IMG/VR virus record: IMGVR_UViG_3300027649_000006
Coordinates: 1-36,117 of that record
DNA: 36,117 nucleotides
Direction: 5' to 3' (one strand)
Origin: a virus
Both the position numbers and the translations under genes were made by a program. Within the stretch, counting starts at the first letter, position 1; each line of letters begins with the position of its first letter. Below, piece by piece: positions 12,691-31,094 of this stretch. The notes under the pieces were generated by a model, which saw only the letters and a program-made list of their open reading frames with translations, did not search any database and was not told the origin of the DNA.

Positions 12691-12838
12691 GTGTGCTTAC
12701 GGTGTTTATGGTATTTATACACCTCACCTGCTCACTTCTAATCCATCTTCGAGCCTCTTCGCGATCCTCTTCTGTCGGCTGCATGGCAATGAAAATATCA
12801 TCTAGACTCATGTCTGTGACAACAATTTCAGTTTTCAT
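12662..12838 (-). CDS. Small hypothetical protein linking helicase and AAA+ ATPase genes
   Basis: ATG at 12838 overlaps the helicase stop in an ATGA and opens a 58-residue frame starting MKTEIVVTDMSLDDIFIAMQ, rich in acidic residues with a basic tail (EEARRWIRSEQ). The frame runs through the late promoter of the next gene and ends 29 nt inside it, so the last 20 residues may be read-through rather than conserved. The ATGA overlap is the main argument for translation. Function unknown. Confidence 0.55.
   Translation of the reverse strand: MKTEIVVTDMSLDDIFIAMQPTEEDREEARRWIRSEQVRCINTINTVSTHEIIQIIPR
12712..12719 (-). promoter_or_regulatory. T4-type late promoter (TATAAATA)
   Basis: Perfect TATAAATACC on the minus strand, 21 nt upstream of the AAA+ ATPase start and inside the 3' part of the 58-aa ORF. 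It allows the ATPase to be expressed late, independent of the replication operon upstream. Confidence 0.72.
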
Positions 12839-14238
12839 ACTCTGATATTCGAAATTGATATGCTCTTCCGAACTTTATCCCAGGGTTTAATTGAATTAGA
12901 TTCAGATGGAGAATCACTTTCACTTCCAGAATCGATCATCGTCTGAGCCGATGCATTTACATCGTAGAGGCGCATTTTCGCCTTGTCAACGCCAACAATA
13001 AACCTTTTGTTGGTAGTCTTATTTGAATATCGATTCTTCAACTGTTTCACCATATATTGGCCAAGCTTTTCAAGTTGTTCCGTTTCATTGATCGAAATCA
13101 TAAAATCTGCCGTTCCAGTCAAAGCAAATGAATCGGCGACGTCGACCATATCAGGATCCGATGACTTCATTCCACCTCGATTTACCTGTGTTGCCGTCCA
13201 GATTGGAACATTAAATTCAATTGCCAATCCGCGCAACTCTTCGGAAATAGCCTTGACGAACGAATTGGTATTGACAGACCCCGAAAGACCTTTGATGCGA
13301 GCCGATGAACAGATTCCAATGTAGTCGACAAAGATAATATCTGGAATAAAATTCTTCTTCATCTTGAGCTCGTTGAGGAGTGCTCGAAAATGACCAGAGT
13401 GACCGGCCGCTGTTGGATATTCCTTGATGATCAGCTTACCTTGTGTTTTAGCGGAAATTTTCTTTATCTTTGAATCGAAGATATCACGAGGAAGAGATTC
13501 AATTTGATCGAGATTGACGTCGAAAAGGTTAGCATCGATGCGTTCAGCAATCCTTTCCTCTGACATTTCAAGGGTAATGTAAAGAACATTCTTTCCCTGT
13601 GAAAGATATGAAGAAGCCAGATGACAAAGCACCAGAGATTTTCCAACATTCACACCAGCCATGATGATGTTCAATGTTTTCTTGGGAACACCGCCACGCG
13701 TGATTGAGTTAAGCATGTTGATGTCAAAGGGGAATCGCGATTCCTTCTTATGATAATACTCATATCGAGAAGTTGCATCTGAGATATAATCGTGACCCAC
13801 CGATGTATCAAATGTAACAGACAGAGCCTTTTGCAAAATATCGGGAATCGATCCGGGTGCAACATCTTTACGCTTCCCATCGATAATAGCAATCGATTCC
13901 ATGACGGCTAAGAATACAGATCGCTCTTGACAGAACTTTTCTGTGCGATTTAAGAGCCATTCACGATCGACCTTTTCATACTCAACAAGGCCTCCAATAA
14001 TTTCCCCAGCTCGATTCTGTGATTCTATAGAACCTTTACCTCCTGCTTGAAGTTCAATTACAAGAGCCGATGGAGTTGGAAGCCTATTGTATTTAAGAAT
14101 GAAATCGAGGATTAGTTCATAGACAATTCTTTCTCCACCTTCAAAATATTCGGCCTTGACGTGGGGCATTGCTTTTCGACAATATTCCTCATCGTGGAGA
14201 AATGATTGAAGTATTATTTTCTGTAAGTTGGCTTCCAT
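12835..14238 (-). CDS. 41: Replicative DNA helicase, T4 gp41/DnaB-like
   Basis: A 467-residue protein with the DnaB/gp41 layout: a helical N-terminal domain (1-150) and a RecA-like C-terminal ATPase. GVNVGKS (195-201) is Walker A, ITLEMSEERIAERI carries the catalytic Glu region, DIIFVDYIGI (Asp305) is Walker B, and TATQVNRGGM contains the Gln/Arg switch of motifs 3 and 4. It would unwind DNA ahead of the phage polymerase. A Ser-rich tail (SGSESDSPSESNS) precedes the C-terminus. Placement downstream of uvsX and a gp40-like ORF reproduces T4 gene order. Length is close to T4 gp41 (475 aa). A GGAAA Shine-Dalgarno lies before the ATG. Confidence 0.95.
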   Translation of the reverse strand: MEANLQKIILQSFLHDEEYCRKAMPHVKAEYFEGGERIVYELILDFILKYNRLPTPSALVIELQAGGKGSIESQNRAGEIIGGLVEYEKVDREWLLNRTEKFCQERSVFLAVMESIAIIDGKRKDVAPGSIPDILQKALSVTFDTSVGHDYISDATSRYEYYHKKESRFPFDINMLNSITRGGVPKKTLNIIMAGVNVGKSLVLCHLASSYLSQGKNVLYITLEMSEERIAERIDANLFDVNLDQIESLPRDIFDSKIKKISAKTQGKLIIKEYPTAAGHSGHFRALLNELKMKKNFIPDIIFVDYIGICSSARIKGLSGSVNTNSFVKAISEELRGLAIEFNVPIWTATQVNRGGMKSSDPDMVDVADSFALTGTADFMISINETEQLEKLGQYMVKQLKNRYSNKTTNKRFIVGVDKAKMRLYDVNASAQTMIDSGSESDSPSESNSIKPWDKVRKSISISNIRV

Positions 14239-14530
14239 TTAAATTTCCAATTTTATATTCTATAGAATCAGTTAGAATCGAAGTGAGCACATCACCGGCA
14301 TATCGATGGAATTTCAAATCATCTTGAAATTTTCGATTGTGCAATATTGTAAAGTGATATGAAAGTTTAATCGAATCGATTTGAGTTTCCTCGCGGATGC
14401 CGACCCGATCATATTGATAGACTGTTCCTTTATACGGGCCACTCAAGAGAACGATCATTCCACATTGATCGTGTAGAGTGTTAAATACACCGATGCGATA
14501 GTCGATGTCTTTAATTGGCTTCTGCAGCAT
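14189..14530 (-). CDS. Small protein between uvsX and gene 41 (gp40 position)
   Basis: The ATG at 14530 (MLQKPIKDIDYRIGVFNTLH) is preferred; the frame is open further upstream but that would lie deep inside uvsX. The 113-residue product overlaps uvsX by 20 nt and the helicase by 50 nt. It has a beta-strand stretch GMIVLLSGPYKGTVYQYDRV, then a helical part. T4 gene 40 lies in the same place and also encodes a small protein (about 113 aa by memory), so this is a positional counterpart; sequence homology is not demonstrated. In T4, gp40 assists prohead initiation. Confidence 0.65.
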   Translation of the reverse strand: MLQKPIKDIDYRIGVFNTLHDQCGMIVLLSGPYKGTVYQYDRVGIREETQIDSIKLSYHFTILHNRKFQDDLKFHRYAGDVLTSILTDSIEYKIGNLNGSQLTENNTSIISPR

Positions 14531-15614
14531 CCCCATCATTCGAAGAATTTGAATGAGAGGCGAGCATTTCCGTATTGCCCAGAGAAAAGGTTGATTCAAC
14601 ATATTTTTTGAAGTCAGTATTATTAAAGATGACATCCCAGAAACTCTTATCGAAGGTTTGTTCTTCGCGAGTGCTTTTGGAAAGTTCTTTTTTTGTCGAT
14701 GGATTGTAGGCTACATACCATCCATTCTTTGGCTTGATGACAAATCCACCGGCTATAGCTACATCAAGGAGACCTGAATAGCGCTGAATGCCTTTGTCGA
14801 ATCCAACCGTGATCATGATCTTAGATTTTTCCTTGACGAAGCGGGACTTTTCGACATTGATGACAAAGCGATATCCATGGAGACCCTCGTCATCTTTATC
14901 CTGCTGACGGCCAAGAATCCAAATATTGTCTGCCGAATATGTTATGCCAGTACCACCTGACACGATCGTCTTCGAATACATTTCCTGTGTCTCATAGGTA
15001 TGAGCAATTGATATCATTGAAATGTCCTTGAGCTTTAGAATCGGCGTGACCATTCGAAAGAGACCCTTCAGAGCTTTGGCTCGAGTCATGTCGGCTACAG
15101 ACTTTTCATTGATCGCATCTTCAACCTCTTTCTTCGAAGCCAGATTGCCGATGGAATCAATCATGATAATTACCTTGTCTCCTCGATTCAAAGTATTCAA
15201 TTGAGAAACCAAATCAAATTTAAGTTCTTCAATGTTGGTGATAGGCGAATGAAAGACGCGAGTCTCATCGATGCCAAAGGATTTAAAGTATGATTTCGGA
15301 GAACCGAATTCCGAATCGTAGAAAAGACAAGCCGATTCCGGATATTTTTTCAAATATGCTGCGACCATTAGAAGACCGAATGAACTTTTAAAATGCTTTG
15401 ATGGGCCAGCTAAAACAGTAGAACCGGAAGTAATGCCACCATCAATCAAGCCAGAAAGCGCTACATTGATCATGGGAACTTCGGTCGATACCATTTCATT
15501 TTCAAATAGATTGGAAGCTTCTAGAGTTGTAGAGAGAGCCAATTTTGAAGCCGCGCGAATTCTAGAGATTAGTAGCGCAGTGCGAGGATTTTGCAGTGTT
15601 TTATCTTTAGGCAT
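14511..15614 (-). CDS. uvsX: RecA-like recombinase UvsX
   Basis: A 367-residue RecA-family protein. GPSKHFKSS (70-78) is the distinctive UvsX form of Walker A, KVIIMIDSIGNL (Asp153) Walker B, and SIAHTYETQEMYSKTIVSGG with the following glycines corresponds to the L1/L2 DNA-binding region. It forms filaments on single-stranded DNA for recombination-dependent replication and repair. Length suits T4 UvsX (about 390 aa). The tail is Ser/Asn/Asp/Ala-rich and acidic (SSNDGDAAEAN), as in T4 UvsX. It has its own sigma70-like promoter 7 nt upstream of the ATG and is followed by the overlapping gp40-position gene and helicase. Confidence 0.95.
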   Translation of the reverse strand: MPKDKTLQNPRTALLISRIRAASKLALSTTLEASNLFENEMVSTEVPMINVALSGLIDGGITSGSTVLAGPSKHFKSSFGLLMVAAYLKKYPESACLFYDSEFGSPKSYFKSFGIDETRVFHSPITNIEELKFDLVSQLNTLNRGDKVIIMIDSIGNLASKKEVEDAINEKSVADMTRAKALKGLFRMVTPILKLKDISMISIAHTYETQEMYSKTIVSGGTGITYSADNIWILGRQQDKDDEGLHGYRFVINVEKSRFVKEKSKIMITVGFDKGIQRYSGLLDVAIAGGFVIKPKNGWYVAYNPSTKKELSKSTREEQTFDKSFWDVIFNNTDFKKYVESTFSLGNTEMLASHSNSSNDGDAAEAN

Positions 15615-15655: not shown

Positions 15656-16858
15656 TTAAAAAAATGTTTCCAATGAAGAAGCTTGTCCAGATTCAATGTT
15701 TCTTCTAACATTATCTTGAACGAGGAAATTGCCAGGGTAATTATCAAGTGAAAGCTTATTTTCTATAAACGCCTTTGCCATTCGAGCCGCATATTCAGCC
15801 GTTGTAACTGGAACATTCTGGCAGATATGATTGAAATTCCTCTTGGCATTATGAATCTGAAAGTCTAGAGGCATTTTCATGATCGAAAGACATTCGCGAA
15901 CCGTGAGGAATCGATCTTCTCGATGATGGGTAAGCATCGTTGGCATGTGACCAACAAAGGCTCCGATGATATCACATGGCACCTCAATTTGCTTTCGCAT
16001 GATGTTTCCACCTAATCCTAATTTCAAGTGAATATCCGCACATCTCTTGGCGAGTTTGGGAAAGCCATGGGCGTCCATCCATTTTCCAACTCGAAGATAG
16101 TCATGACCGGATGCGGCTTCGATTACTCGAAGAACATTGGCCGTTCGTGTCAGCGAAGAAGCAAATTGAGCATGTGATATGCCTCCATGAATTTCTTCGA
16201 GCACGTAACGGTAATAAGGATTTTGCGAAGGTGTTTTTTCATTGAGTGTAATGACCGACATTGGATCGGCATGATGTGCCAATTTGGCGCCATCGATAGT
16301 GTCTTCGATCCGTTCATGGCAGCCAGGATTGCAAGATTCTAACGTTGGAATTTTATCTCCTTGCCAAAAGAAGTAGAACGTTCGTTCACGAACTTGTGAA
16401 AGTCCATGGGTTAAAGATCTGGTTTTGAAGATTGAAAAGGCATAACCATTCTCTCTTCCGATCTGCCGCAGACGCTCCACAACCGGTTCTCCGAGCTTGG
16501 ATGCCAGTCGTGGCGCATTCTCACCATACATTACTCGCGGCTTCATGGAAGAAAGGACGTATTCCGCGGAACGGAACATCCATTCATTCATCGGAGAATT
16601 GCCCGCGGCGGATTGAGATAGTGCCGAAAGACCCGCACATGGACATGTAGTCGAAACAACGTCGACCGCATGAGGATGCTTACCGCCTTCATCTAGCAAA
16701 ATGTAGGGTATCAGATTGTCATAGTAGTTTACCAGATGATAATCATGTGCCTTGAATGGCGAATATGACAGAAGATAGTCTGGCCTTGTGCCAAATATAT
16801 TTTGAGCGGCGATTGTCATTCCGCCGATAAGAGGAACGATTGAGGCGTGTTTAATCAT
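15656..16858 (-). CDS. C5-cytosine DNA methyltransferase
   Basis: A 400-residue protein with ordered C5-MTase motifs: VPLIGGMTIAAQ near the N-terminus (motif I region), STTCPCAGLSALSQ with catalytic Cys74 (motif IV, PCxxxS), GENAPRL (motif VI, E113-N114) and LSQVRERTFYFFW (motif VIII, QxRxR, 145-149). After a variable target-recognition region (about 155-300), REDRFLTVRECLSIMKMP and ICQNVPVTTAEYAARMA correspond to motifs IX-X. It would methylate C5 of cytosine from SAM, protecting phage DNA from restriction or marking it for packaging. The start overlaps the SGNH-like gene by ATGA. Given the hydroxymethylase nearby, its substrate state is interesting. The specificity cannot be read. Confidence 0.9.
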   Translation of the reverse strand: MIKHASIVPLIGGMTIAAQNIFGTRPDYLLSYSPFKAHDYHLVNYYDNLIPYILLDEGGKHPHAVDVVSTTCPCAGLSALSQSAAGNSPMNEWMFRSAEYVLSSMKPRVMYGENAPRLASKLGEPVVERLRQIGRENGYAFSIFKTRSLTHGLSQVRERTFYFFWQGDKIPTLESCNPGCHERIEDTIDGAKLAHHADPMSVITLNEKTPSQNPYYRYVLEEIHGGISHAQFASSLTRTANVLRVIEAASGHDYLRVGKWMDAHGFPKLAKRCADIHLKLGLGGNIMRKQIEVPCDIIGAFVGHMPTMLTHHREDRFLTVRECLSIMKMPLDFQIHNAKRNFNHICQNVPVTTAEYAARMAKAFIENKLSLDNYPGNFLVQDNVRRNIESGQASSLETFF

Positions 16859-17979
16859 AGAAAAAATTCATCGAGACCGCCAGATGTTTGTTGAGTGGCC
16901 ACTTCTAATTTATCCGATCTTTTTTTATCGGGGACTGGAAAATCTTGGGTGCCATTCCAATGAGGATAGAACTCTCTGGAGAGGTGGATAGAATGAGGTT
17001 TCTCCATGAACTTAAAATCAAGCTCGCCCTTTCCATTCAAGAGATAGTCCGTCCAACGAATAAATTTAATTCCACGCTCTTTCGAAAGCGCTTCTACATC
17101 CCGATTGAAAGTTCTACGAATAGCATCTCTCTCGTGCCATGAACCCCAGAATGGTTTGCCTTTGTAATAACCAGTCTTTGGAAGCTTGCGCGATTCATTT
17201 TCAAGTGGAAGTAATTCATAGATAGCCGTGTTTCTGATGGGTAACGCATCAACGGCCTGAACATATCGCTTGGCTAAAGCCGCGGCGTTTTCAAAGGCAT
17301 CACCTTCCAATCGACAGAGATGATGACGTACGTCAATATTGCCAAAGTAAAACTCCGCGGAAGTTACACTGTCGATGGAGGTAAACTCTTCGATGAATGT
17401 ATTAAGCCCCGTTGTCAATGCGCCATTCAGTGTCTTAAATGGAACGGAATTTACGGTCCATCCCGGACGATGCATGCAAATCGAATGAGAGTCTCCAATG
17501 ACAATCCTATCCGTGATGTGCGGAAAGCGAATCTTGGTACTTTCGCGGCGCATGCGCGCGAGATTTTTAATGTCGACATCGAGCCATTCGGCCTGAATCT
17601 CCTTCTTATTACTCGTCGCATTCTGAATGCGTTCTTCAATCATCTCATCGATCTTAGGAAAATCTATGCCCAATGAATACACCTTGCCCTTAAACTTCGA
17701 AAAGTTGCGAATGTTCCAAGCATAGGGAAATGATTGAACACCTCCAAAGAGATTTAATGTCCCGGCCCAATCTGAACCCCAATACACATATAGTACATCA
17801 TATTCATTATGATCTTCATGTGCCGTCCCGGCCCAATTGATATCAACGGCATCATACTTTCCATAGAAAGTATTCTTAGTCTGTCGAATCTGATCCGCAT
17901 AGATGATGCCCTGGGCTGAGCGATGGGATGCCAGACGAGGAACAATCGGAATAAAAGGTGCCGTGACTAATGCTTTCAT
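16855..17979 (-). CDS. SGNH-hydrolase-like phage protein
   Basis: A 374-residue protein. IVIGDSHSICMHRPG (about 160-174) matches SGNH/GDSL block I with nucleophile Ser, YFGNIDVRHH (211-220) resembles the block III Asn loop, and KPHSIHLSREFYP near 338-350 supplies a possible catalytic His (block V). The fold would therefore be an esterase/acyl-hydrolase type. The N-terminal 150 residues are unrecognised. It overlaps the methyltransferase gene by 4 nt and follows the Gly-rich ORF by 3 nt, so it belongs to the putative modification operon; removal or transfer of an acyl group on a modified base is a speculative role. No signal peptide is present. Confidence 0.65.
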   Translation of the reverse strand: MKALVTAPFIPIVPRLASHRSAQGIIYADQIRQTKNTFYGKYDAVDINWAGTAHEDHNEYDVLYVYWGSDWAGTLNLFGGVQSFPYAWNIRNFSKFKGKVYSLGIDFPKIDEMIEERIQNATSNKKEIQAEWLDVDIKNLARMRRESTKIRFPHITDRIVIGDSHSICMHRPGWTVNSVPFKTLNGALTTGLNTFIEEFTSIDSVTSAEFYFGNIDVRHHLCRLEGDAFENAAALAKRYVQAVDALPIRNTAIYELLPLENESRKLPKTGYYKGKPFWGSWHERDAIRRTFNRDVEALSKERGIKFIRWTDYLLNGKGELDFKFMEKPHSIHLSREFYPHWNGTQDFPVPDKKRSDKLEVATQQTSGGLDEFFL

Positions 17980-17982
17980 AAT

Positions 17983-18261
17983 TCAATAACCTACTCCGGA
18001 GCCATCACCATTGCCATAGCCATAGCCATAGCCAGAGCCATCGCCAGAGCCATAGCCATAGCCATAGCTAAGGCCAGAGCCATCGCCAAGGCTAGAGCCA
18101 TCGCCAGAGCCATAGCCGGAGCCGTAGATAACGCGATCGCCATTGCCATAACCATCGCCATGCCCATCGCCATCGCCGAAGCCATAGCCAAAGCCAAAGC
18201 CATAGCCATGAGAGTTCTGAGAATCTTCAAAGTTGATTGCGATTCTAGTTGATCTGTCCAT
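17983..18261 (-). CDS. Gly/Tyr/Asp repeat protein, 92 aa
   Basis: After MDRSTRIAINFEDSQNSHGY the protein is almost wholly Gly with Tyr, Asp, Ser and Asn in GYG/GDG units, encoded by tandem hexamers (GGCTATGGCTAT type). Such low-complexity frames recur in phages and bacteria next to regulatory genes; no role is known to me. The alternative frame gives a MetAla repeat (MAMALAMA), which is less likely because the first 20 residues of the chosen frame look like normal protein and the start overlaps the preceding gene by 17 nt. The array is likely unstable in length by slippage. Confidence 0.5.
   Translation of the reverse strand: MDRSTRIAINFEDSQNSHGYGFGFGYGFGDGDGHGDGYGNGDRVIYGSGYGSGDGSSLGDGSGLSYGYGYGSGDGSGYGYGYGNGDGSGVGY
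18000..18200. repeat. Imperfect hexanucleotide array (GCCATA / GCCAGA)
   Basis: Plus strand reads as 3n-phased units of GCCATA, GCCAGA and GCCATC for about 200 bp. It encodes the Gly/Tyr/Asp repeats on the minus strand. Units vary but frame is kept, consistent with selection for reading frame or with expansion by codon-phased slippage. Confidence 0.75.
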
Positions 18262-18481
18262 ATAGTTTACTATCCGCGGATTCGAAAATTCTAACCGATG
18301 TGCAATATCCTTTCATGACGCAATGAGGCTGGCGCTTTCTATGATTCGTCGCACATGACACATGGCATTGAACATGATCGACGATGTGACATGTCTTATC
18401 ATGATGAATGCTCATCTTCGGAAAACCAGCTTTCTTCGATGCTGGTTTATTGTAATGAAAAAAGAATGATTTAACTTTCAT
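18245..18481 (-). CDS. Small conserved phage protein, Cys/His-rich
   Basis: The ATG at 18481 (MKVKSFFFHYNKPASKKAGF) is chosen over one at 18496 because the sigma70-like -10 element ends 5 nt upstream of 18481, which would leave the earlier ATG outside the transcript. The 78-residue product continues HHDKTCHIVDHVQCHVSC and QPHCVMKGYCTSVRIFE. The FFFHYNKPAS opening and Cys/His pattern are familiar to me from phage and plasmid hypotheticals; metal binding is possible. It overlaps the Gly-rich ORF by 17 nt and begins the SGNH-methyltransferase transcript. Confidence 0.68.
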   Translation of the reverse strand: MKVKSFFFHYNKPASKKAGFPKMSIHHDKTCHIVDHVQCHVSCATNHRKRQPHCVMKGYCTSVRIFESADSKLYGQIN

Positions 18482-18486
18482 GATAT

Positions 18487-18514
18487 AATATATCATGAAT
18501 TCCGATTATGTAAA
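18487..18514 (-). promoter_or_regulatory. Sigma70-like early promoter
   Basis: Minus strand TTTACA (18514-18509), 16-nt spacer, TATATT (18492-18487), then 5 nt to the ATG at 18481. It sits exactly between the ADDT-like gene (stop 18506) and the small Cys/His gene, marking a new transcription start inside the modification island. The -10 is embedded in a TGATATA-TATATCA inverted repeat (about 18481-18496), a possible operator. Confidence 0.65.
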
Positions 18515-19549
18515 TGATAAAACGCCGTCGTCGTAATTCTTTTTCGAAGAACCTTTATCCCAGAGATGCCGAGTCGTATGTCCATTTAATATGACTTTGC
18601 CGGTAGGATGCTTGGCCAAATTGAAACAGTCGGGGAAGATCCAGTTGTATGGAATGCGTTTGGTCGGGCTTTTCACACCATGAGCGATTGCGATACTTTT
18701 CCATAGTAGACAGCTTTTATCCTCCACATTCAACATCTTCTGCCTTTCCATTGGATTCGATGGATGTTCACAAAGCTGTTTCATGTCCTTGAGCCAGTCG
18801 ATGCATTTTTGATTCTTTGGAATAAATTCTCCATCCGCATCGATGACATATTTACATTTGCCATTGTAGTCGCGACCGAAGATTTGAAACATGCCATCGA
18901 AATGGCCAGTTCCTCCATAGAGCACAGATTCTGGATCGACCAGATGCGGGCATGCCATGGCTAAGTAGCGCGCGGCATTTTTACATGGATAGAGAGGAGA
19001 ACGAAATCCTTGTTCAGATTTGAAGTGTGCTTCGAGTATCTTGGCAAATCCCATCATCGTATACCGTTTTCCATTCGTCAGATGCCCCTTAAGTGCGCGA
19101 GCTGCCTGCAGCGGCCCACTCAGAAGCCATTCTTTAACATTGGTTCCTTTCGGATAATAAATTTGAAAGAGATCAGATCGAGCATGTCGATTTGTTTTGA
19201 AGTGCTCTCGCGTAGCATCAACACCTTTGTCCATGAGATGGGTCAGCGTTCCCCAGTGTTCATTGGTAAATGAAAAGACGAGAGTGTAATATAGTCGCTG
19301 TTCCGCATCCGTGATCATCGACATCAGATCAACGAAGGGATGCTCATCCCAATGAAGACGATGGGAGAATATCTGGTAATCATCATGAAGCAGTTTATCC
19401 TCACGAAGGTCGAATTTGGAGCAGAATTCAAAGAACTTCGCTTCACGTTCATCCTGCGTCCAGGTATGCATCCACGAAAGAATCGGTTTCTTGTTGACGA
19501 TTTGAATGGCTCGATCTGTATTTGGATATTCAATATTGTTGTTCATCAT
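18506..19549 (-). CDS. Putative thymidine-hypermodification (ADDT-like) protein
   Basis: The ATG at 19549 is chosen because it overlaps the PLP-enzyme stop in ATGATG. The 347-residue product has no nucleotide-binding loop but shows a conserved-looking core: LYPCKNAARYLAMACPHLVD (about 185-204) followed by YGGTGHFDGMFQIFGR (211-226), then YVIDADGEF and RIPYNWIFPDCF near the end. I recall similar sequences in phages carrying amino-acid:DNA transferase (ADDT) genes of thymidine hypermodification, where an amino acid is attached to activated 5-hydroxymethyl-dU; the match is from memory and needs a profile search. Context (hydroxymethylase, deaminase, PLP enzyme, pyrophosphorylase-like protein) supports a DNA modification role. 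Confidence 0.6.
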   Translation of the reverse strand: MMNNNIEYPNTDRAIQIVNKKPILSWMHTWTQDEREAKFFEFCSKFDLREDKLLHDDYQIFSHRLHWDEHPFVDLMSMITDAEQRLYYTLVFSFTNEHWGTLTHLMDKGVDATREHFKTNRHARSDLFQIYYPKGTNVKEWLLSGPLQAARALKGHLTNGKRYTMMGFAKILEAHFKSEQGFRSPLYPCKNAARYLAMACPHLVDPESVLYGGTGHFDGMFQIFGRDYNGKCKYVIDADGEFIPKNQKCIDWLKDMKQLCEHPSNPMERQKMLNVEDKSCLLWKSIAIAHGVKSPTKRIPYNWIFPDCFNLAKHPTGKVILNGHTTRHLWDKGSSKKNYDDGVLSFT

Positions 19550-20442
19550 GGTAAATTTAATCGCACATCTTTTTTCCATTGCCGAAAGGAATCAGTCTTC
19601 TGAATAATCGATGCATCTCTGAGAATCGGATCCCGCCCAACATTCCACATAAGCCGACGTTTCTTTCCATCTTTGGGAATGAAACGCCACACTTTTGCAT
19701 CGTAAGTTGCCACGGTCGGAAACGGAGGCATGTCTTCCTCTCTGGCAGCTTGGGCAAATTCCAGCGGTTCAGAAATAACCCTCGCCCGTCCTAATTCACC
19801 GGCCTGCAGATTTCGCGCTACGGCGATACATGTAAACTCGGCATTAGGCCAAGCGATCTGCAAAGCTCGCGCGAGCACACCGGTTGAAATCGCCACGTAC
19901 ACTTCATCGGGTTCAGGGATCTTAGATGCCGCATGAATGATCGCGGCCGTCGTCAATTCGTGTTTCAAACCGAGGGGAATGAAGTATGCGCCATTCTTAG
20001 AAGCCCATTCTCTGGCCCACTTATTTAAGTTCGGCATCGCGGCGATTCGTTCGAAGATTGGTCGTGCCCCTCGTTCAATGCAGCATGCCTGATGAAGGGA
20101 AATCTCTTTGGATGCTGGCATGAAAAGAACAACTTGCTTGCCACTATGCCTCTTCACAACATCACAGAGAGAAACTCCGGCCAGTCCTACACGAGGCTGA
20201 CAATAGACGAGTGTTTGATTTGGAATCTTTGAGCAGAGTAAATCGCCGGCTCGAGCTTTGGTTCCTACGATCAAATCATCACGAACGACATCAACTCCAT
20301 CATGATGAATTACCATGGGATCTGGATTATATGGAGTCCAACCTTCACAGAGACTGAGGTAATAATCCCGCGCTTCGAGGAGTCCCATTCCCATGGGAAG
20401 ATCTTTGTTATTTCCATCTATGACGTGTGTATCGTGGCTCAT
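19546..20442 (-). CDS. Fold-type II PLP-dependent enzyme
   Basis: The ATG at 20442 (MSHDTHVIDGNNKDLPMGMG) follows the zinc-ribbon ORF by 4 nt; a GTG at 20484 would overlap that ORF completely. VVRDDLIVGTKARAGDLL has a Lys placed like the PLP lysine of the ACC deaminase/D-cysteine desulfhydrase group, the following GLAGVSLCDVVKRH corresponds to the segment after the lysine that binds the carboxylate, and VVLFMPASKEISLHQACCIE matches the typical cofactor-domain strand-helix. YVAISTGVLARALQ would be the phosphate-binding Gly loop, though Gly-poor. It likely acts on an amino acid, e.g. to supply or trim an amino-acid adduct on a base; this is inference from context. Confidence 0.65.
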   Translation of the reverse strand: MSHDTHVIDGNNKDLPMGMGLLEARDYYLSLCEGWTPYNPDPMVIHHDGVDVVRDDLIVGTKARAGDLLCSKIPNQTLVYCQPRVGLAGVSLCDVVKRHSGKQVVLFMPASKEISLHQACCIERGARPIFERIAAMPNLNKWAREWASKNGAYFIPLGLKHELTTAAIIHAASKIPEPDEVYVAISTGVLARALQIAWPNAEFTCIAVARNLQAGELGRARVISEPLEFAQAAREEDMPPFPTVATYDAKVWRFIPKDGKKRRLMWNVGRDPILRDASIIQKTDSFRQWKKDVRLNLP

Positions 20443-20446
20443 AGAA

Positions 20447-20554
20447 TTATTTAGTCCCGAACATTTTTTTCCAACAAGCCTCACACATTCTGATGAGAGG
20501 AGCTACATCAACTCCGCAGAATAAACATGTCCTGGCTTCTTTAATCTTTTTCAT
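20447..20554 (-). CDS. Zinc-ribbon microprotein, 35 aa
   Basis: ATG at 20554 overlaps the stop of the 400-aa gene as ATGA and opens a 35-residue frame starting MKKIKEARTCLFCGVDVAPL. It contains CLFCG and, 13 residues later, CEACW, a classic paired CxxC zinc-binding knuckle, and ends KKMFGTK. The next gene starts 4 nt after its stop. Tight coupling on both sides and the intact four-Cys motif make it a real gene despite its size. Probably a nucleic-acid or protein-binding accessory factor of the modification operon. Confidence 0.72.
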   Translation of the reverse strand: MKKIKEARTCLFCGVDVAPLIRMCEACWKKMFGTK

Positions 20555-21753
20555 TTGTAAATTTCAGGATCGATCCAGTCAGAATAGTCCGGATGCGTTT
20601 TGACGAGCCTGACATATGCGGCTGGAGTTAAATTATTTGCTTTGATAACTTCATCGTAGTAGAAATTTTGATTCAAATCATTGAAGGTTTTTACGAGTCC
20701 TAGATCGAGCATCGCCCGATGTCTTCCATATGGATGGATGATCTTCGAGGAATTGAATATCTTATCGCGGTCAAGGTGATTATATGCTTCTCCCATTCGA
20801 ACATAGTTTGTCGCGTACCTGATGTAGTCACAGGCAACATCTTCAAGGTTATATGGAACTTCTCCAGTATCGAGACATGCCATTTCCATTACACAATCAA
20901 GGAATTCATTCGTCTTCATTTTCTCAGCCGGTTTAGCCAAGTAGGAAATACATTGCTCGGCATTTGAACCATAGAAGAACATTGAATCGCGCACGACATA
21001 CTGAGGAAACCAATCGGCGATATCTGCTACAACGGCTGCATATTGAAAGTGATATTGCCGAAGACCATTCTGAACATTCCAGTCAAGCATGAACTTGCCT
21101 ACTTCTCGCAGTGTTCTTTTTTCCTTCGAAGCATTCAACCAAGCAAATAAATCTTTGGCTAATCGAGGAGCATATTCAGAGAGGTAATAATCGCCTCCAC
21201 GTTTATATCCAGACGGTGGCTTAGGAAATGCTGGAAATTGATATCCAACAGACGTGTAGAACGTGCCCTGTTCGTTCCGAACCATCTCGACCATCCGATC
21301 TATAGAGTTGGCTCGATGGAGCTTCAGAAGGAGCGTATTGTGATAACCAGAGGGCTTCTGGGCGTAATTGATACCAGATCCACATACTCTGTGCAGAATG
21401 AAAATGTAAAACCATTCGGATGGATAAAACTCCGAAGTTTTTCCAGTCCAATTGTGGGCTACCTCATCACGCTGAGATGTAATCTTACCGGCCTTCATCT
21501 TCTCCCAGTATGGATGTTCCGGAGTCCACCCATAGAAAACATCATTTACGATCTGGGAAAATCCTGCATACTTACGTTCGACGACATCGTAAAGCTCAAC
21601 ATTCTCCATCAAATCATCTCCCATCTTTGAATCTGGGTGGAGAGTCATGCCGTAGGGAGGATTCTTCGAAGTATTGCAAAGCTCCTGCTGCTTCTTGGCC
21701 AGATTGTAATACCGAAGAAAGTCCGTGTAATATGGAGTTGGTGTGATCTTCAT
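20551..21753 (-). CDS. Putative aGPT-pyrophosphorylase/HMUDK-helical family protein
   Basis: A 400-residue, mostly helical protein. The core FYIFILHRVCGSGINYAQKP (about 115-134), the TSVGYQFPAFPKPP segment, and FQYAAVVADIADWFPQYV (about 237-254) remind me of the alpha-glutamyl/putrescinyl-thymine pyrophosphorylase and hydroxymethyl-dU kinase helical families described by Iyer and colleagues as DNA-hypermodification enzymes. These resemble DNA-glycosylase-like helical folds and act on pyrophosphorylated 5-hydroxymethyl-dU in DNA. The match is by recall and moderate. It overlaps the dCMP deaminase stop by ATGA and the zinc-ribbon ORF by ATGA, placing it firmly in the nucleotide-modification operon. 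Confidence 0.6.
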   Translation of the reverse strand: MKITPTPYYTDFLRYYNLAKKQQELCNTSKNPPYGMTLHPDSKMGDDLMENVELYDVVERKYAGFSQIVNDVFYGWTPEHPYWEKMKAGKITSQRDEVAHNWTGKTSEFYPSEWFYIFILHRVCGSGINYAQKPSGYHNTLLLKLHRANSIDRMVEMVRNEQGTFYTSVGYQFPAFPKPPSGYKRGGDYYLSEYAPRLAKDLFAWLNASKEKRTLREVGKFMLDWNVQNGLRQYHFQYAAVVADIADWFPQYVVRDSMFFYGSNAEQCISYLAKPAEKMKTNEFLDCVMEMACLDTGEVPYNLEDVACDYIRYATNYVRMGEAYNHLDRDKIFNSSKIIHPYGRHRAMLDLGLVKTFNDLNQNFYYDEVIKANNLTPAAYVRLVKTHPDYSDWIDPEIYK

Positions 21754-22202
21754 GCTAAAATTTCATCATATTGAATACCCACCTCTTTGAAAAGATTGCG
21801 CGTAAACTCACATGATTCTTTCCATCGTTCCGGAACGTCCTGAATAGGAATGACGACTCGTCTAATGCCAACTTGAATGATACCCTTGGCGCACTCTCCA
21901 CATATTGGAAGTCCGATAACATAAAGAGTTGCACCCTTCAGAGAAATGCCATGAATCGTTGCATTGTAAATAGCATTCATTTCCGCATGAATCATGAATT
22001 TGTACTTCATATCTCGATCATCAAGCCGTTCAGATAATTCATCGATGCCACGTGGAAATCCATTATACCCAGTCGCTAGGATTTTTCGATCGTAGACAGC
22101 AATAGCACTCGTGCGAGTGGATGGATCTTTTGACCATGATGCAATTTCCTTGGCCAGGCAAAGAAATCGTACGTCCCATTTATTATCCGGCGGTATGTTC
22201 AT
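21750..22202 (-). CDS. Deoxycytidylate (dCMP) deaminase
   Basis: A 150-residue zinc deaminase. HAEMNAIYN (H72, E74) and LPICGECAKGIIQ (C101, C104) are the zinc-binding and catalytic signature of the cytidine/dCMP deaminase family; SKDPSTRTSAIAVYDRKIL and GYNGFPRG match the substrate-binding start typical of dCMP deaminases. It converts dCMP to dUMP, feeding thymidylate or hydroxymethyl-dUMP synthesis, and in T4 it is allosterically controlled by dCTP/dTTP. The start lies 20 nt inside the upstream hydroxymethylase gene, so the two are coupled. Length is near that of short bacterial and phage enzymes; T4 Cd is longer (about 190). Confidence 0.93.
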   Translation of the reverse strand: MNIPPDNKWDVRFLCLAKEIASWSKDPSTRTSAIAVYDRKILATGYNGFPRGIDELSERLDDRDMKYKFMIHAEMNAIYNATIHGISLKGATLYVIGLPICGECAKGIIQVGIRRVVIPIQDVPERWKESCEFTRNLFKEVGIQYDEILA

Positions 22203-22890
22203 GGTCGAAATGTTTCTCGATTAAGTGATAATGTTTCGAATAGACGTGAAGCGAACCGACGTTCCAATAGATATTACCCAATTCAACTCGATCGGATTCC
22301 AACACCAGAGAATTGTAATCATCCATCAAATAATTTAGAACGTGATAAGCCCAAGCTCGATCATTTTTATATCCATAGACCAGATCATTGCTCCTCATCG
22401 AAACAGATGCATGCATTTTTCCATCTCGAATTAAATATTGAACGGCATTGGTGCACATGAAATCTGACATGCCATCGCGGCAGAAATCGGTTTGCATCTG
22501 CGGACGAGTGTAGATCATGCTCGCTCTTCGAGTATTTCTATCATTTAAAAGCGCTTCAAGGCAATGATTATACTGATATCCGTTCGACTCTGACCATACA
22601 CACCAGCCATAATTCGAATTGATTAGCCCATCTTTCGAAGCAACATCTTTCCAGATTTTCGGAACTGTTCCCGGAATATCGTTGATAGACAGAGATTGCG
22701 ATTTATACCATGCAATCTCGCGATCGATGTAGTTCATATCCGGATCGCCAAAGATAGAATTCTCATCGGCAATAAATGAAGCATTGATAATTTCCAGAAC
22801 TGTTCCACCACCCTTATCATCGATCGAATTACCATACCGCAAAAGTTTTAAAAACTGATGCCGAATGTCATTTACAGTATTCATATTCAA
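22183..22890 (-). CDS. Thymidylate-synthase-family enzyme, probable deoxynucleotide hydroxymethylase
   Basis: A 235-residue protein with the TS fold signature: NSNYGWCVW (91-99), MSDFMCTNAVQYLIRDGKMH with nucleophile Cys146, RSNDLVYGYKNDRAW (166-180) and GSLHVYSKHYHL. These match the dUMP/dCMP binding and catalytic residues of TS and of T4 dCMP hydroxymethylase. Aligning RSxDxxxGxxxN of TS without gaps places Asp177 where TS has the pyrimidine-sensing Asn; Asp there is the hallmark of dCMP specificity in T4 gp42. It would therefore make hydroxymethyl-dCMP, or possibly hydroxymethyl-dUMP. It overlaps the deaminase by 20 nt and the upstream gene by ATGA. Confidence 0.82.
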   Translation of the reverse strand: MNMNTVNDIRHQFLKLLRYGNSIDDKGGGTVLEIINASFIADENSIFGDPDMNYIDREIAWYKSQSLSINDIPGTVPKIWKDVASKDGLINSNYGWCVWSESNGYQYNHCLEALLNDRNTRRASMIYTRPQMQTDFCRDGMSDFMCTNAVQYLIRDGKMHASVSMRSNDLVYGYKNDRAWAYHVLNYLMDDYNSLVLESDRVELGNIYWNVGSLHVYSKHYHLIEKHFDHEHTAG

Positions 22891-23312
22891 TGATTGGCGC
22901 CACGCTTTGGACGATTGAGGAAGTCATGATTTGGATTCTGACCATCCATCTTTTTACGGCACCATGCAACAATAAAAGAATAGTAGTTAATGGCGTCCTT
23001 TGCCGAATCTTCAATCGATTCAAAATTTGGCTTATACTCGGGATCGTGGACCATCGCGGCGATGACAGATTCCATTCGAAGCTTCTTGGCATGAATCAGG
23101 TCCATGATAGTTCCAACGCCATTTGGATAATAGTCGGCTTGTTTAATTTTCGAATGATCATTTTGATAATCGATAGATTTGCGTTGCTGTAATGCAATGC
23201 ATTCGCCGAGAACTTTAACCGATTCAGATTCTTCATTTACCGAGCCTCGAGGCTTTGCAAATTTAGCCAGTATTTTAGATTCTATTGAGATGCCAGGCAG
23301 TTTATATTTCAT
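22887..23312 (-). CDS. MazG/Nmad1-like (DUF1599-type) protein
   Basis: A 141-residue protein. CIALQQRKSIDYQND, then GTIMDLIHAKKLRMESVIAA and ESIEDSAKDAINYYSFIVAW follow the helical pattern of the nucleotide-modification-associated domain 1 / MazG-like all-alpha NTP pyrophosphohydrolase group: an Asp-Tyr site, a DLI..K helix and an EDSAKDA-type metal-binding helix. Such proteins hydrolyse canonical or modified dNTPs. As first gene of the transcript (promoter at 23322-23350) and coupled to the hydroxymethylase by ATGA, it plausibly removes an unmodified dNTP from the pool. The exact family needs a profile search. Confidence 0.62.
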   Translation of the reverse strand: MKYKLPGISIESKILAKFAKPRGSVNEESESVKVLGECIALQQRKSIDYQNDHSKIKQADYYPNGVGTIMDLIHAKKLRMESVIAAMVHDPEYKPNFESIEDSAKDAINYYSFIVAWCRKKMDGQNPNHDFLNRPKRGANH

Positions 23313-24859: not shown

Positions 24860-24934
24860 TGGTTGACTCAGTTGGACTCGAACCAACACTCGTCGCGTTA
24901 TGAGCACGCTGCTTCGCCTTTAAGCTATGAGTCA
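24860..24934 (-). tRNA. tRNA with CAU anticodon (probably elongator Met), CCA encoded
   Basis: Acceptor TGACTCA/TGAGTCA; D arm GCTT...AAGC; anticodon loop CTCATAA (CAU) on an imperfect stem; T arm GTTGG...CCAAC with TTCGAGT loop. Discriminator A and CCA at 24862-24860. The first base pair is normal, so it is not an initiator. The 5' end overlaps the last 10 nt of the GMD gene, including its stop codon. Confidence 0.85.
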
Positions 24935-25920
24935 ATAATCTTGCCAGACATTTTTTCCTGAAGGGACTGGATATCCGCATCGACCATCAGACGTGCGAGG
25001 TCGGCGAATTTCGTCTTCGGCTCCCAGCCGAGCTTCTGCTTTGCCTTGCTGTAATCGCCGATGAGCAGATCTACTTCGGCTGGACGTAAATAGCGCGGAT
25101 CAATCTCGACGTATTTGTTCCAGTCGAGGCCGGCATGGCCGAAGGCGATTTCCAAAAACTCGCGGATGCTGTGCGTCTCGTTCGTGGCGATCACATAATC
25201 ATCTGGCTGCTCCTGCTGGAGCATCAGCCACATCGCCTCAACATATTCCTTCGCGTAACCCCAGTCGCGCTTGGCGTCGAGATTGCCGAGGAACAACTTG
25301 TTTTGCCGGCCGGCCTTGATGCGCGCGATGGCACGGGTGATTTTACGCGTCACAAACGTCTCGCCGCGCCGGGGCGATTCGTGGTTAAACAATATTCCGT
25401 TGCTGGCGTGCAGGCCATAGGACTCGCGGTAGTTCACCGTAATCCAGTGGGAATAAACCTTCGCGCAACCATAAGGACTGCGCGGATAAAACGGCGTTGT
25501 CTCCTTCTGCGGCACTTCCTGCACCAGACCATACATCTCACTCGATGACGCCTGATAGAAACGTGACTGGAGTCCTGTCTCGCGAATCGCCTCCAGCAGC
25601 CGCACCGTGCCGGTGCCGGTGATGTCGGCGGTGTATTCCGGACTGTCGAAACTGACGCGAACGTGGGATTGCGCGGCTAGATTGTAAATTTCCGTGGGCT
25701 TGATTAAGCTGAGTAGCCGCGCCATTGCACTGCCATCGCTCAGATCGCCGTAATGCAAAAACAGGTGCGGGTCGTTGTAAATGCCGTCGAGCCGTCCGGT
25801 GTTGAACGTGCTGGCGCGCCGGATGACGCCGTGAACTTCATAGCCTTTGCCCAGCAGAAGTTCGGCGAGATAGGAACCGTCCTGTCCGGTGATGCCGGTG
25901 ATGAATGCTTTTTTGCACAT
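24925..25920 (-). CDS. gmd: GDP-mannose 4,6-dehydratase
   Basis: A 331-residue SDR-type enzyme. [16 protein letters not shown] (8-23) is the NADP-binding loop, VIRRAST and [20 protein letters not shown] are GMD-specific, SSSEMYG (125-131) provides active-site residues, and YGCAK (Y150, K154) is the catalytic pair; [16 protein letters not shown] binds substrate. It converts GDP-mannose to GDP-4-keto-6-deoxymannose, precursor of GDP-fucose, GDP-rhamnose and related sugars. Length suits the short bacterial form. Base composition is strikingly GC-rich with GC-ending codons, unlike every neighbour, indicating recent bacterial origin. Its last codons run into the tRNA-Met gene. It may supply the fucosyltransferase-like protein at 31823-32695. 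Confidence 0.95.
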
Positions 25921-26374
25921 ACTAGGTCTATTGAGTTGGCAGGATAAAATGAGGAGATTGCAGCCGGATATAAACCGGCATCTTCAGCTTAGAAAGCTGG
26001 CGTTTTTACGAAGGGTGACCTCAGTCGCGCCCGCCCCCGTCGAGACGTTTCATTCGTAATTTAAACTATGCAATCAAAGGATGGTCCCAGTGCTTATTCC
26101 ATGTCGGCGTCTTTCGATTCCGCTGGGCTCTAGTCATGAATTTTGCTGTAGCGCATCATGATCTATTACCAGCTCTCGGCATCTCGCGACCGCCTTACGG
26201 AGGCTACAGTCACTGAATCCACTGGGACCTGTCAGTCGGTCCCTCATGCGACTCAATGAGAAGCAAGGATCTTAGAGATTGCCGATCTGACAAAATTATT
26301 AAGCCGAATTGAGGTGAGCCCTTTTTAGGAGCAGGGGCATGAAGCCCCGTGTCCCTCAATCCAGCAAATCAAAA
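25921..26374. other. 454-bp region without protein-coding genes
   Basis: Lies between the GMD start and the second CAU tRNA. Contains the structured RNA candidate described above. I find no promoter of either class in it that would serve the GMD gene, which may depend on read-through from the tRNA promoter at 26459-26466. Confidence 0.6.
25950..26350 (-). ncRNA. Structured RNA candidate, tmRNA-like strings, identity unresolved
   Basis: No coding frame. Complementary pairs: 25956-25962 with 26069-26075 (7 bp), 26006-26012 with 26053-26059 (7 bp), hairpins 25985-25999 and 25963-25979, 26083-26092 with 26220-26229 (10 bp), 26146-26152 with 26203-26209 (7 bp), and 26334-26348. Minus-strand TCTCGACGGGGGCGG (about 26047-26033) and CGTAAAAACGCC (26010-25999) recall the 5' part of tmRNA. 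No canonical T-arm or ALAA-type tag was found, and the segment before the GMD gene is too short for a normal tmRNA. Could be a truncated or diverged tmRNA, an intron remnant, or an unknown phage RNA. Confidence 0.4.
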
Positions 26375-26451
26375 TGGTAGCGGGTGAGGGATTCGAACCC
26401 TCGATCTCAACGTTATGAGCATTGCGAGATGACCAACTTCTCTAACCCGCG
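26375..26451 (-). tRNA. tRNA with CAU anticodon (Met or lysidine-type Ile2), CCA encoded
   Basis: Acceptor CGCGGGT pairs with ACCCGCT except for a C-U mismatch at position 1-72; D arm GAGA...TCTC with GG in the loop; anticodon stem CAATG/CGTTG, loop CTCATAA (CAU); T arm GAGGG...CCCTC, loop TTCGAAT. Discriminator A, CCA at 26377-26375. An unpaired 1-72 resembles initiators, but the anticodon stem lacks the three GC pairs. With another CAU tRNA nearby, an Ile2 (AUA-reading) identity is plausible. Confidence 0.88.
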
Positions 26452-26458
26452 TTAAATT

Positions 26459-26466
26459 TATTTATA
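26459..26466 (-). promoter_or_regulatory. T4-type late promoter ahead of the tRNA cluster
   Basis: Perfect TATAAATAAA on the minus strand, 7 nt upstream of the tRNA 5' end and 33 nt past the stop of the preceding gene. It implies late transcription of the tRNA/RNA segment; transcription would begin almost at the tRNA 5' end. Confidence 0.6.
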
Positions 26467-26498
26467 CGTGGCAGCTTTAGATTCACCAAACATTTTTA

Positions 26499-27035
26499 CT
26501 ATGCAATCCAAGCTGGTACCTCTCGGCGTTTCCAAGAAAATAGCTGTCTCTTCTCGCCGAGGTAATACTTTCGATATGACTTTATCGAATCTCCAGACAC
26601 TTTGTATTGCTCGGGCATAGCCGGCGGTGGTTGGGTAAAGGAGCCTTCGGGTATATTATTTGGCGGGCGGCGTAGACATTCCGTCAATCTACTAGTAGCG
26701 TGAACTTTGCCACCATATCGATACGTGTATTCATCCATCAGCGAGACAAACATCTCGAATAGCCATGCATAATTAGAAGAACTATGCCGCACCCAAACAC
26801 TTGAAGGATGATTGATATGAGTAGACTTATAGAGCAGAGACTCACGACTATCGGGAATAATGTATCGAGTTTGCTTTCGACCAGTCTTACTAACTCCGAT
26901 AGACCTAACCCCGTCAAGCACTCTATGGGCAGTCGAGAGTAATTGAGCATACTCAAGAACCATCTTTACCACGTGCTTATCCACGTGCATTTGAGCACAG
27001 TCTTTTGTACCATGCTCCAGATAAAATATGTTCAT
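26499..27035 (-). CDS. Conserved phage protein (MNIFYLEH...CDKHVVKM-type family)
   Basis: The ATG at 27035 (MNIFYLEHGTKDCAQMHVDK) is preferred to a TTG three codons earlier. The 178-residue protein continues HVVKMVLEYAQLLSTAHRVL, then HINHPSSVWVRHSSSNYAWL, DEYTYRYGGKVHATSRLTEC, FTQPPPAMPEQYK and SYRKYYLGEK. I recognise this order of conserved blocks from many phages and bacteria as one uncharacterised family; the many invariant His, Asp, Trp and Tyr residues suggest an enzyme, possibly nucleic-acid-directed. It is the last gene before the tRNA cluster, with a late promoter 33 nt beyond its stop. Function not assigned. Confidence 0.75.
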   Translation of the reverse strand: MNIFYLEHGTKDCAQMHVDKHVVKMVLEYAQLLSTAHRVLDGVRSIGVSKTGRKQTRYIIPDSRESLLYKSTHINHPSSVWVRHSSSNYAWLFEMFVSLMDEYTYRYGGKVHATSRLTECLRRPPNNIPEGSFTQPPPAMPEQYKVSGDSIKSYRKYYLGEKRQLFSWKRREVPAWIA

Positions 27036-27202
27036 ATCGTTCAAAGAGAATCGCCGGACGGCAAACCAATGGTTAAATTATTTGAAATCTATTCACCTGC
27101 CCCATACTTTCTGGTATCCTTTGGGTTGTTCATGCGGAGTTTCCAGACTCATGAGCGGAACGTATTGCTGTCAGATGAATAGATTTCGAAATTTATTCTG
27201 CA

Positions 27203-27514
27203 TCACTGCGACTCACGCCGCGCGACCGCGAGCCGGCTCGCGACGTGGATGCGGACGGGCCCCAGTCGGCCAAGTCTGCGAGACGACCCCTCTCGTTCAG
27301 AGCGAATCCAGTTTCCAGTGATGTCCGAAAGTTCAATCGTGGCCTCGTTCGCTTGAGCGAGGCGATCTACAAAATTGTTTTCCAAGTCTTCCCCATCGTC
27401 CGTAAATGAATCCATTTCTTCTGCGAGGCTGGTCGCAGCCCTAATGTGCTCGACAAACTTCTTCCTCAGCCGCATAAAGTAGGCGTCAGATCGATCAGCG
27501 GTTTTCGTTTTCAT
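27203..27514 (-). CDS. Hypothetical protein, 103 aa
   Basis: The ATG at 27514 (MKTKTADRSDAYFMRLRKKF) lies 2 nt after the stop of the 115-aa gene and is preferred to a GTG or similar codon further upstream. The product is helical and acidic in the middle (SLAEEMDSFTDDGEDLENNF) and basic and Arg-rich at the C-terminus (SRRLGRLGPVRIHVASRLAV). The tail is more GC-rich and looks less protein-like, so the 3' end could be altered. No family recognised. Cotranscribed with the upstream gene. Confidence 0.58.
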   Translation of the reverse strand: MKTKTADRSDAYFMRLRKKFVEHIRAATSLAEEMDSFTDDGEDLENNFVDRLAQANEATIELSDITGNWIRSEREGSSRRLGRLGPVRIHVASRLAVARRESQ

Positions 27515-27516
27515 AA

Positions 27517-27864
27517 TCAATATTGGTACCAAGGATTCCCCATCGTCCGTTTATCCACCCGAACATCCATGACTTTGGCGCGAACCATTCGAACCGCACC
27601 GCAATGAGGAGCATATTGCCCAGTCTCCGGGCAACGATAGTGAACGCGATAGCGAATCGTCGGGTTCAGAGTTTTCAGCGCTTTCAAAATGTTGCGACCG
27701 TCGACATCATTCCTAAGCTTCATGATCGCGTTTGAGGCACCGCGGCCGCGATAGACTACATTCAACATGCCTGGGAGCGAAGAATCTTCGAAATAAGTGG
27801 CGCGATTGCTTCGATGATAGACCAGCCGACGATCTCGATTTCCATTTTCAATTTCTTGTTTCAT
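27517..27864 (-). CDS. Hypothetical basic protein, 115 aa
   Basis: Begins MKQEIENGNRDRRLVYHRSN and contains beta-like VVYRGRGASNAIMKLRNDVD, RYRVHYRCPETGQYAPHCGA and KVMDVRVDKRTMG. Strongly basic (many Arg), suggesting nucleic-acid binding, but no domain is recognised. Its 5' end, leader and promoter form a cassette repeated at 29166-29271, where the same MKQEI start leads a different short ORF. Nine nucleotides separate the -10 from the ATG. Function unknown. Confidence 0.66.
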   Translation of the reverse strand: MKQEIENGNRDRRLVYHRSNRATYFEDSSLPGMLNVVYRGRGASNAIMKLRNDVDGRNILKALKTLNPTIRYRVHYRCPETGQYAPHCGAVRMVRAKVMDVRVDKRTMGNPWYQY

Positions 27865-27946
27865 TCTGAGATAATAATACCATGAAACCTGAGAATGTAC
27901 ACAAAAAAGTGAAAGTATTTTTAGGGCTGATTATCAGGGCTTTGCG
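27849..27946 (-). repeat. Duplicated promoter cassette, copy A
   Basis: Shares a 40-bp exact block (27849-27888 with 29166-29205) covering the start codon region and -10, and a second block with GTGAAAGTATTTTT and TATCAGGGCTTTGCG. Contains a CTGATAATCAG palindrome. The distal end forms the last codons and stop of the truncated epimerase. Confidence 0.85.
27874..27901 (-). promoter_or_regulatory. Sigma70-like early promoter
   Basis: Minus strand TGTACA (27901-27896), 16-nt spacer ending TGG (extended -10 like), TATTAT (27879-27874), 9 nt from the ATG at 27864. Part of cassette copy A. Confidence 0.65.
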
Positions 27947-28163: not shown

Positions 28164-28210
28164 AACTTATTTTGATTCTGATCAGAAGTACATAATAAAG
28201 TGTAACTGAA

Positions 28211-29023: not shown

Positions 29024-29037
29024 CTATATAATTTATT

Positions 29038-30185: not shown

Positions 30186-30189
30186 GATT

Positions 30190-31086: not shown

Positions 31087-31094
31087 ATATTTAA

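Follow-up and report, generated by a model that had tools for sequence, protein, structure and literature searches.

A conserved gene cassette of a T4-like phage with a probable role in hypermodification of 5-hydroxymethylcytosine

A gene cassette on the minus strand of a viral DNA record encodes a predicted T4-type dCMP hydroxymethylase, a pyridoxal phosphate (PLP) enzyme and two helical proteins whose predicted folds resemble amino acid:DNA transferases. The window, meaning the whole stretch of DNA analyzed, is IMG/VR record IMGVR_UViG_3300027649_000006, positions 1 to 36,117 (36,117 bases). The gene run extends from 23312 to 15656 within it, where an earlier note on this DNA had placed an island of coupled base-hypermodification genes. 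The operon probably functions as a DNA-hypermodification pathway, and its likely, though not certain, role in an uncultured T4-like phage is to place an amino-acid-derived group on 5-hydroxymethylcytosine (5hmC). The gene identities, their conservation and order, the Asp179 signature of the hydroxymethylase and the lack of a kinase match in the searched records are computed observations. The island of the earlier note, with its transferase-like and PLP members, is upheld by conservation, predicted folds and homology to phage M6; its base is now predicted to be 5hmC, and a zinc-ribbon microprotein has been dropped from it. The genes are listed below in cassette order, followed by the two that lie downstream of the last cassette gene (aa, amino acids; ORF, open reading frame; MTase, methyltransferase).

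22887–23312, minus strand: 141-aa Nmad1/MazG-like protein, first cassette gene; relatives match PF07659 below the cut-off
22183–22890, minus strand: dCMP hydroxymethylase of the thymidylate synthase (TS) superfamily, predicted maker of 5hmdCMP; T4 gp42 structures, E 2.5e-75
21750–22202, minus strand: dCMP deaminase; PF00383 E 1e-17, phrog_174 E 7e-37
20551–21753, minus strand: 400-aa helical protein, amino acid:DNA transferase- or HMUDK_hel-like by predicted fold
19546–20484, minus strand: fold-type II PLP enzyme, homologue of the M6 PLP enzyme; phrog_7093 E 2e-37, hhalign to M6
18506–19579, minus strand: 357-aa helical protein, amino acid:DNA transferase-like by predicted fold
17983–18496, minus strand: variable interval with 83-aa and Gly-rich 92-aa ORFs, outside the conserved system; no homologues in relatives
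16855–17979, minus strand: 374-aa protein with a T4 β-glucosyltransferase-like N-terminal segment (hhalign) and SGNH-like motifs
15656–16858, minus strand: C5-MTase-like protein, optional member; PF00145 E 1e-11
14511–15614, minus strand: UvsX recombinase, flanking marker of T4 gene order; phrog_97 E 1e-79, 53% identity to T4 uvsX
12835–14238, minus strand: DnaB-like helicase, T4 gp41 relative, flanking marker of T4 gene order; phrog_19 E 6e-119, 42% identity to T4 gp41

The operon is real and conserved. Its genes overlap by 4, 20, 4, 34, 17 and 4 bases at some junctions and are separated by 66, 9 and 3 bases at the others, and the longest stop-free runs reach 403 codons as compared to no more than 230 in 200 shuffles. 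Relatives of the 400-aa protein were found in at least 498 IMG/VR stretches when the family alignment was used for scanning; scans with single proteins gave 30 and 13 loci. Presence was counted in the 33 loci with enough flanking sequence: the PLP enzyme was found in all 33, the SGNH-like protein in 31, the hydroxymethylase in 27, the Nmad1-like protein in 24, the 357-aa protein in 23, the deaminase in 21 and the C5-MTase in 10. Based on these counts, the conserved core consists of the hydroxymethylase, the 400-aa protein, the PLP enzyme and the SGNH-like protein, usually joined by the 357-aa protein. A tblastn search of 50,697 phage records with the 400- and 357-aa proteins gave no match, and among bacterial and archaeal genomes only four relatives turned up in a scan, all of them in metagenome bins of unrelated taxa.

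The position of the cassette is that of a T4-like genome. The T4 order is 43-42-β-gt-uvsX-40-41, and the order in cassette loci is 43-Nmad1-42-deaminase-400-PLP-SGNH-uvsX-41. The cassette thus fills the site of gene 42 and the β-glucosyltransferase (β-GT) gene upstream of uvsX; the window itself shows only the uvsX-41 side of this arrangement.

By sequence, the TS-family enzyme is a dCMP hydroxymethylase of the T4 type. The family named in the earlier note was recovered (PF00303, E 9e-11), and the base, there an unspecified pyrimidine, is now predicted to be a cytosine derivative. Compared to solved structures, the protein matched T4 dCMP hydroxymethylase far better than thymidylate synthase (E 2.5e-75 vs. 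1e-9), and it is 53% identical to T4 gp42. Asp177 of the window enzyme corresponds to gp42 Asp179, the residue that selects dCMP. Asp occupies this position in 56 of 57 cassette hydroxymethylases, the remaining one having a gap, and the catalytic Cys (T4 Cys148) is present in all 57. PDB chains of gp42 that read Asn at the selecting residue align at the same place. Phages M6, ViI and W-14 use 5-hydroxymethyluracil (5hmU), and when their sequences were read by eye an Asn was seen one place further along. The Asp is also carried by the T4-like phages 44RR, IME13 and phiAS4 and is missing from M6, whose enzyme shares only about 20% identity with that of the window. In a sequencing-based selection, Asp177 marked cytosine-modified phage DNA (PMC8670742). 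Because the hydroxymethylase is dCMP-type by sequence, gp42-like and with Asp179, the modified base is predicted to be 5hmC and not 5hmU.

The PLP enzyme connects the cassette to a known base-modification system. Of 62 aligned sequences, 61 have its presumed cofactor lysine, Lys76, and one has a gap there, in agreement with the fold-type II assignment made earlier. M6 carries a fold-type II PLP gene directly after its ADDT gene, and hhalign joined the window family to this M6 protein with 97% probability (E 2e-11). The two share a C-terminal YDxKxW...WN motif, and these sequence comparisons make the window protein a homologue of the PLP enzyme encoded beside ADDT in M6. The novelty that the earlier note saw in a fold-type II PLP enzyme in such a pathway is therefore lost to M6. 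A PDB sequence search with the PLP protein gave no meaningful match. PLP domains related to that of the window were also seen in Erythrobacter phage R6L (L045:8804-11235) and Microcystis phage Mae-JY30 (L044), either fused to an N6/N4 DNA methylase or beside ParB/Srx genes; these arrangements possibly represent another PLP-dependent DNA modification.

The 400- and 357-aa helical proteins were compared by predicted structure. Their AlphaFold models were of moderate confidence, with pLDDT values of 75 and 76, respectively. In Foldseek searches the 400-aa model matched the 'Amino acid:DNA transferase' A0A6J5L8T5 (E 4e-31) and A0A6J5LCY1 (E 5e-3), while the 357-aa model matched A0A6J5LCY1 (E 3e-28), aGPT-Pplase1 (E 1e-2) and HMUDK_hel (E 0.04–0.09). 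The top named matches were amino acid:DNA transferases, aGPT-Pplase1 and proteins with the helical domain of 5-hmdU DNA kinase, and beyond the proteins' own families the named matches had Foldseek probabilities of 0.8–1.0 and E values of 0.005–0.1. The two proteins are taken, from these models, as distant members or analogues by fold of the amino acid:DNA transferase/aGPT-Pplase/HMUDK_hel superfamily. Pfam, PHROGs and NCBIfam returned nothing for either protein, Pfam gave nothing useful for all of their aligned relatives, the 357-aa model had no match when compared to PDB folds and a PDB sequence search with the 400-aa protein found no meaningful one.

The 374-aa protein had been described as SGNH-hydrolase-like, and its GDSH and GNID motifs and C-terminal His fit that description, by motif only. 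Ser164 and His332 are invariant in 60 aligned sequences, of which 10 have Ser in place of the Asn of GNID. Neither Pfam nor PDB sequence searches gave a meaningful match for this protein. In a one-to-one hhalign test its first 100 residues aligned with residues 24–101 of T4 β-GT at E 6.5e-5, as compared to E 0.13 or higher in controls with other families, and the sub-threshold matches to PF09198 in five relatives fall within the SGNH-like gene. Homologues are present in T4-like Aeromonas and Stenotrophomonas phages. That of 44RR is 795 aa long, and its C-terminal stretch matches HMUDK_hel below the cut-off (E 0.0036) and holds an AGPGA motif also found in M6 HMUDK_hel. Together, the β-GT-like and HMUDK_hel-like signals suggest a tie of the SGNH-like protein to both 5hmC and the transferase-like family. 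A UDP-galactopyranose mutase gene was observed near the SGNH-like gene in an uncultured relative (L094:1324-2316, named by eye) and in IME13 (L060:3270-4334).

The interval upstream of this gene is variable. The 83-aa ORF (18245–18496), read in the earlier note as a zinc-ribbon microprotein, lacks CxxC, and none of the relatives searched carries a homologue, not even one with neighboring genes 94–98% identical; that reading is rejected. Other ORFs occupy 17983–18496 in the nearest relative. A Gly/Tyr/Asp-rich low-complexity ORF with short repeats lies at 17983–18261 and has an altered form in relative L001.

The remaining cassette genes were assigned with varying clarity. The dCMP deaminase and the C5-MTase family stand as originally named. 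The MTase is an optional member of the cassette, being absent from relatives of 183 kb and 260 kb. Its match to Pfam starts no earlier than motif IV, and its motif I reads VPLIGG; the catalytic Cys, Glu and QxRxR motifs align with M.HhaI and are invariant. The equivalent of HhaI Asn304 is N348 of the window protein, an Asn in all seven aligned members, and CmoX has Arg at this position (PMC12783734). CmoX-type carboxymethylation was rejected on this difference. For the 141-aa protein the Nmad1/MazG-like label is carried by relatives, which matched PF07659 at E 1e-4 and 5e-4, below the family cut-off; the window copy itself was below threshold. Its identification as a T4 gp56-type dCTPase was rejected, as hhalign was not significant. 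Searches with the HMU kinase of M6 recovered M6, ViI and W-14; they gave no hit in nine cassette records or in 93 loci. Either activation differs here, or a kinase is beyond recognition or lies outside the fragments.

We infer cytosine as the modified base, an amino acid as the adduct and the following order of steps. The dCMP hydroxymethylase would make 5hmdCMP, and a nucleotide derived from it would be polymerized in place of some or all cytosine, with the dCMP deaminase and the Nmad1/MazG-like protein managing the dCMP/dCTP pool. On DNA, the 400- and 357-aa transferase-like proteins would attach an amino acid at the hydroxymethyl group; after this, the PLP enzyme would remodel the bound amino acid, as its M6 homologue is thought to do. 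The role of the SGNH-like/β-GT-like protein is speculative: it might recognize 5hmC and then activate or trim the group, replacing the HMU DNA kinase of thymidine pathways. Amino-acid hypermodification of 5hmC would perhaps proceed without a kinase. A specific kinase-free scheme, with activation by either the SGNH/β-GT-like protein or a C5-MTase degenerate in its S-adenosylmethionine (SAM) site, attachment by the transferase-like proteins and remodeling by the PLP enzyme, is offered tentatively, as a possibility that may well be wrong.

Several results weigh against this pathway. PF18723 and PF18724 both detect M6, ViI and W-14, but in the same searches the 400- and 357-aa proteins gave no match at E≤1, whether as the window copies, as alignments of 20 and 17 members or in the related records. 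Shallow and deep alignments of the two proteins compared by hhalign to HMUDK_hel and ADDT were not significant either, in a test that also fails to join those two families to each other. Membership by sequence in PF18723/PF18724 is therefore not claimed; the earlier labels, aGPT-pyrophosphorylase/HMUDK-like for the 400-aa protein and ADDT-like for the 357-aa protein, agree with predicted fold and not with sequence. The fold matches beyond the proteins' own families are themselves weak (TM 0.33–0.48 by query length, at most 0.57 by target). The β-GT (E 6e-5) and 44RR fusion (E 0.0036) signals are individually weak, and a profile-profile comparison of the HMUDK_hel family to the 44RR C-terminus was not significant. 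The T4-type dNMP kinase gp1 (PF21448) was absent in 12 cassette records and the dCTPase gp56 was found in only one of 93 loci, so the synthesis of hmdCTP is not fully accounted for; in 28 loci a MazG-like ORF close to the cassette may take their place or act on the nucleotide pool. Many of the relatives are fragmentary, and absences among them are soft.

Other explanations account for parts of the same gene set. A diverged conventional thymidine pathway based on 5hmdU, of the M6 or ViI kind, would explain why a TS-superfamily enzyme, a dCMP deaminase, a PLP enzyme and transferase-like proteins are common to the cassette and M6. It would also fit an ORF resembling the uracil-DNA glycosylase (UDG) superfamily that lies near a transferase gene in both; by eye, this ORF was seen in 38 loci (e.g. 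L139:4920-5429), some 500 bases upstream of the 400-aa gene, and near ADDT in M6 (L047:6833-7339), and the window is without one. The hydroxymethylase, however, is gp42-type with Asp179 and distant from the M6 enzyme, no HMU kinase was found in the records searched, and PF18723/PF18724 missed the window and its relatives while detecting all three thymidine phages. Because of the hydroxymethylase type and the kinase result, membership in a 5hmU pathway fails, and this explanation is very unlikely. W-14 proteins used as scan queries matched only W-14 itself.

Alternatively, 5hmC may be made and finally carry a sugar or another group, with the nucleotide pool, cofactors or host molecules as the targets of the transferase-like proteins and PLP enzyme. 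The β-GT-like N-terminus of the SGNH-like protein would suit this, as would UDP-galactopyranose mutase genes near the cassette in four relatives and near the SGNH homologue in IME13. So would a glycan-synthesis block at 24925–35560 of the window, where a GDP-mannose dehydratase, a short-chain dehydrogenase, a glycosyltransferase, a nucleotidyltransferase and an FkbM methyltransferase were seen; it could serve surface or DNA glycosylation. However, it is the transferase-like, PLP and SGNH genes, not glycan genes, that form the tight core, and the M6 relative of the PLP enzyme sits among base-modification genes. In twelve cassette records T4 α-glucosyltransferase (α-GT, PF11440) gave no match and β-GT (PF09198) none over threshold. 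A sugar or other group of this kind is unlikely, if less so than the thymidine pathway. The C5-MTase could instead be the main activator, its SAM site degraded and its Cys activating 5hmC for attack by an amino-acid nucleophile. C5-MTases can couple thiols to 5hmC in vitro, though no paper on the point was found in the literature searched. The invariant catalytic motifs beside the unusual motif I and partial Pfam match are as this idea would have them, but the gene is found in only 10 of 33 loci and its degeneration was judged by eye; it may be a plain methyltransferase. This is the most improbable of the three.

The predicted pathway would resemble the M6/ViI thymidine pathways in its working, but on the base of T4. 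The hypermodified thymidines are 5-NedU in M6, 5-NeOmdU in ViI and α-putrescinylthymine in W-14. Like the cassette, these phages have a TS-superfamily hydroxymethylase and paired transferase-like helical proteins, and M6 also has the homologous PLP enzyme and a dCMP deaminase. Unlike them, the cassette has a hydroxymethylase of the dCMP type, not the dUMP type; searches found no HMU DNA kinase, its transferase-like proteins fall outside PF18723/PF18724 and its SGNH-like protein has a β-GT-like N-terminus. The T4 5hmC/glucosyl-5hmC system shares the gp42-type enzyme, the position between 43 and uvsX, the dCMP deaminase and a β-GT-like segment; in contrast to T4, the cassette showed no α-GT, over-threshold β-GT or dNMP kinase and has transferase-like, PLP and SGNH-like genes at the β-GT site. 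The system making 5-carbamoyloxymethylcytosine (PMC8670742) likewise combines an Asp177-type hydroxymethylase, dCMP deaminase and a second 5hmC-acting enzyme, but there a carbamoyltransferase stands where the cassette has transferase-like, PLP and SGNH-like proteins. CmoA/CmoX/CmoY, which yield 5-glycylcarboxymethylcytosine (PMC12783734), resemble the cassette in placing an amino acid, glycine, on the C5 side chain of cytosine and in including a C5-MTase homologue. They differ in that no Cx-SAM synthase or ligase match was found among the window ORFs scanned, and in that 5hmC is predicted here to arise in the nucleotide pool.

Three traits make the cassette unusual: its hmC setting, the failure to detect an HMU kinase, and the ties of the SGNH-like protein to T4 β-GT and HMUDK_hel. 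The known modifications of T4-type 5hmC include glycosylation and carbamoylation. To our knowledge, amino-acid decoration of phage bases has been tied mainly to 5hmU, a thymine-type base derived from dUMP; the exception in the literature searched is glycine on 5-carboxymethylcytosine (PMC12783734). A cassette this widespread, pairing a dCMP hydroxymethylase with transferase-like proteins and a PLP enzyme, predicts a 5hmC counterpart. If true, this would add a new base and new DNA-tailoring enzymes to those known and would provide an escape from defenses directed at 5hmC, such as McrBC-type restriction. The SGNH-like proteins of T4-like Aeromonas phages also gain a testable role in base modification.

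The cassette loci show mosaicism. The 357-aa gene is 80–82% identical to that of relative L001, whose neighboring genes are 92–98% identical, and the PLP gene is 39% identical in relatives L002–L005, where its cassette neighbors reach 58–84%. Elsewhere in the window, a DarA_C domain (defense against restriction; PF18789, E 3e-8) was found at 2922–3842. A pyrimidine-dimer-glycosylase-like gene lies at 26499–27044, matching phrog_624 (DNA binding protein) at E 1e-54 and PF03013 at E 7e-4, the latter below the cut-off.

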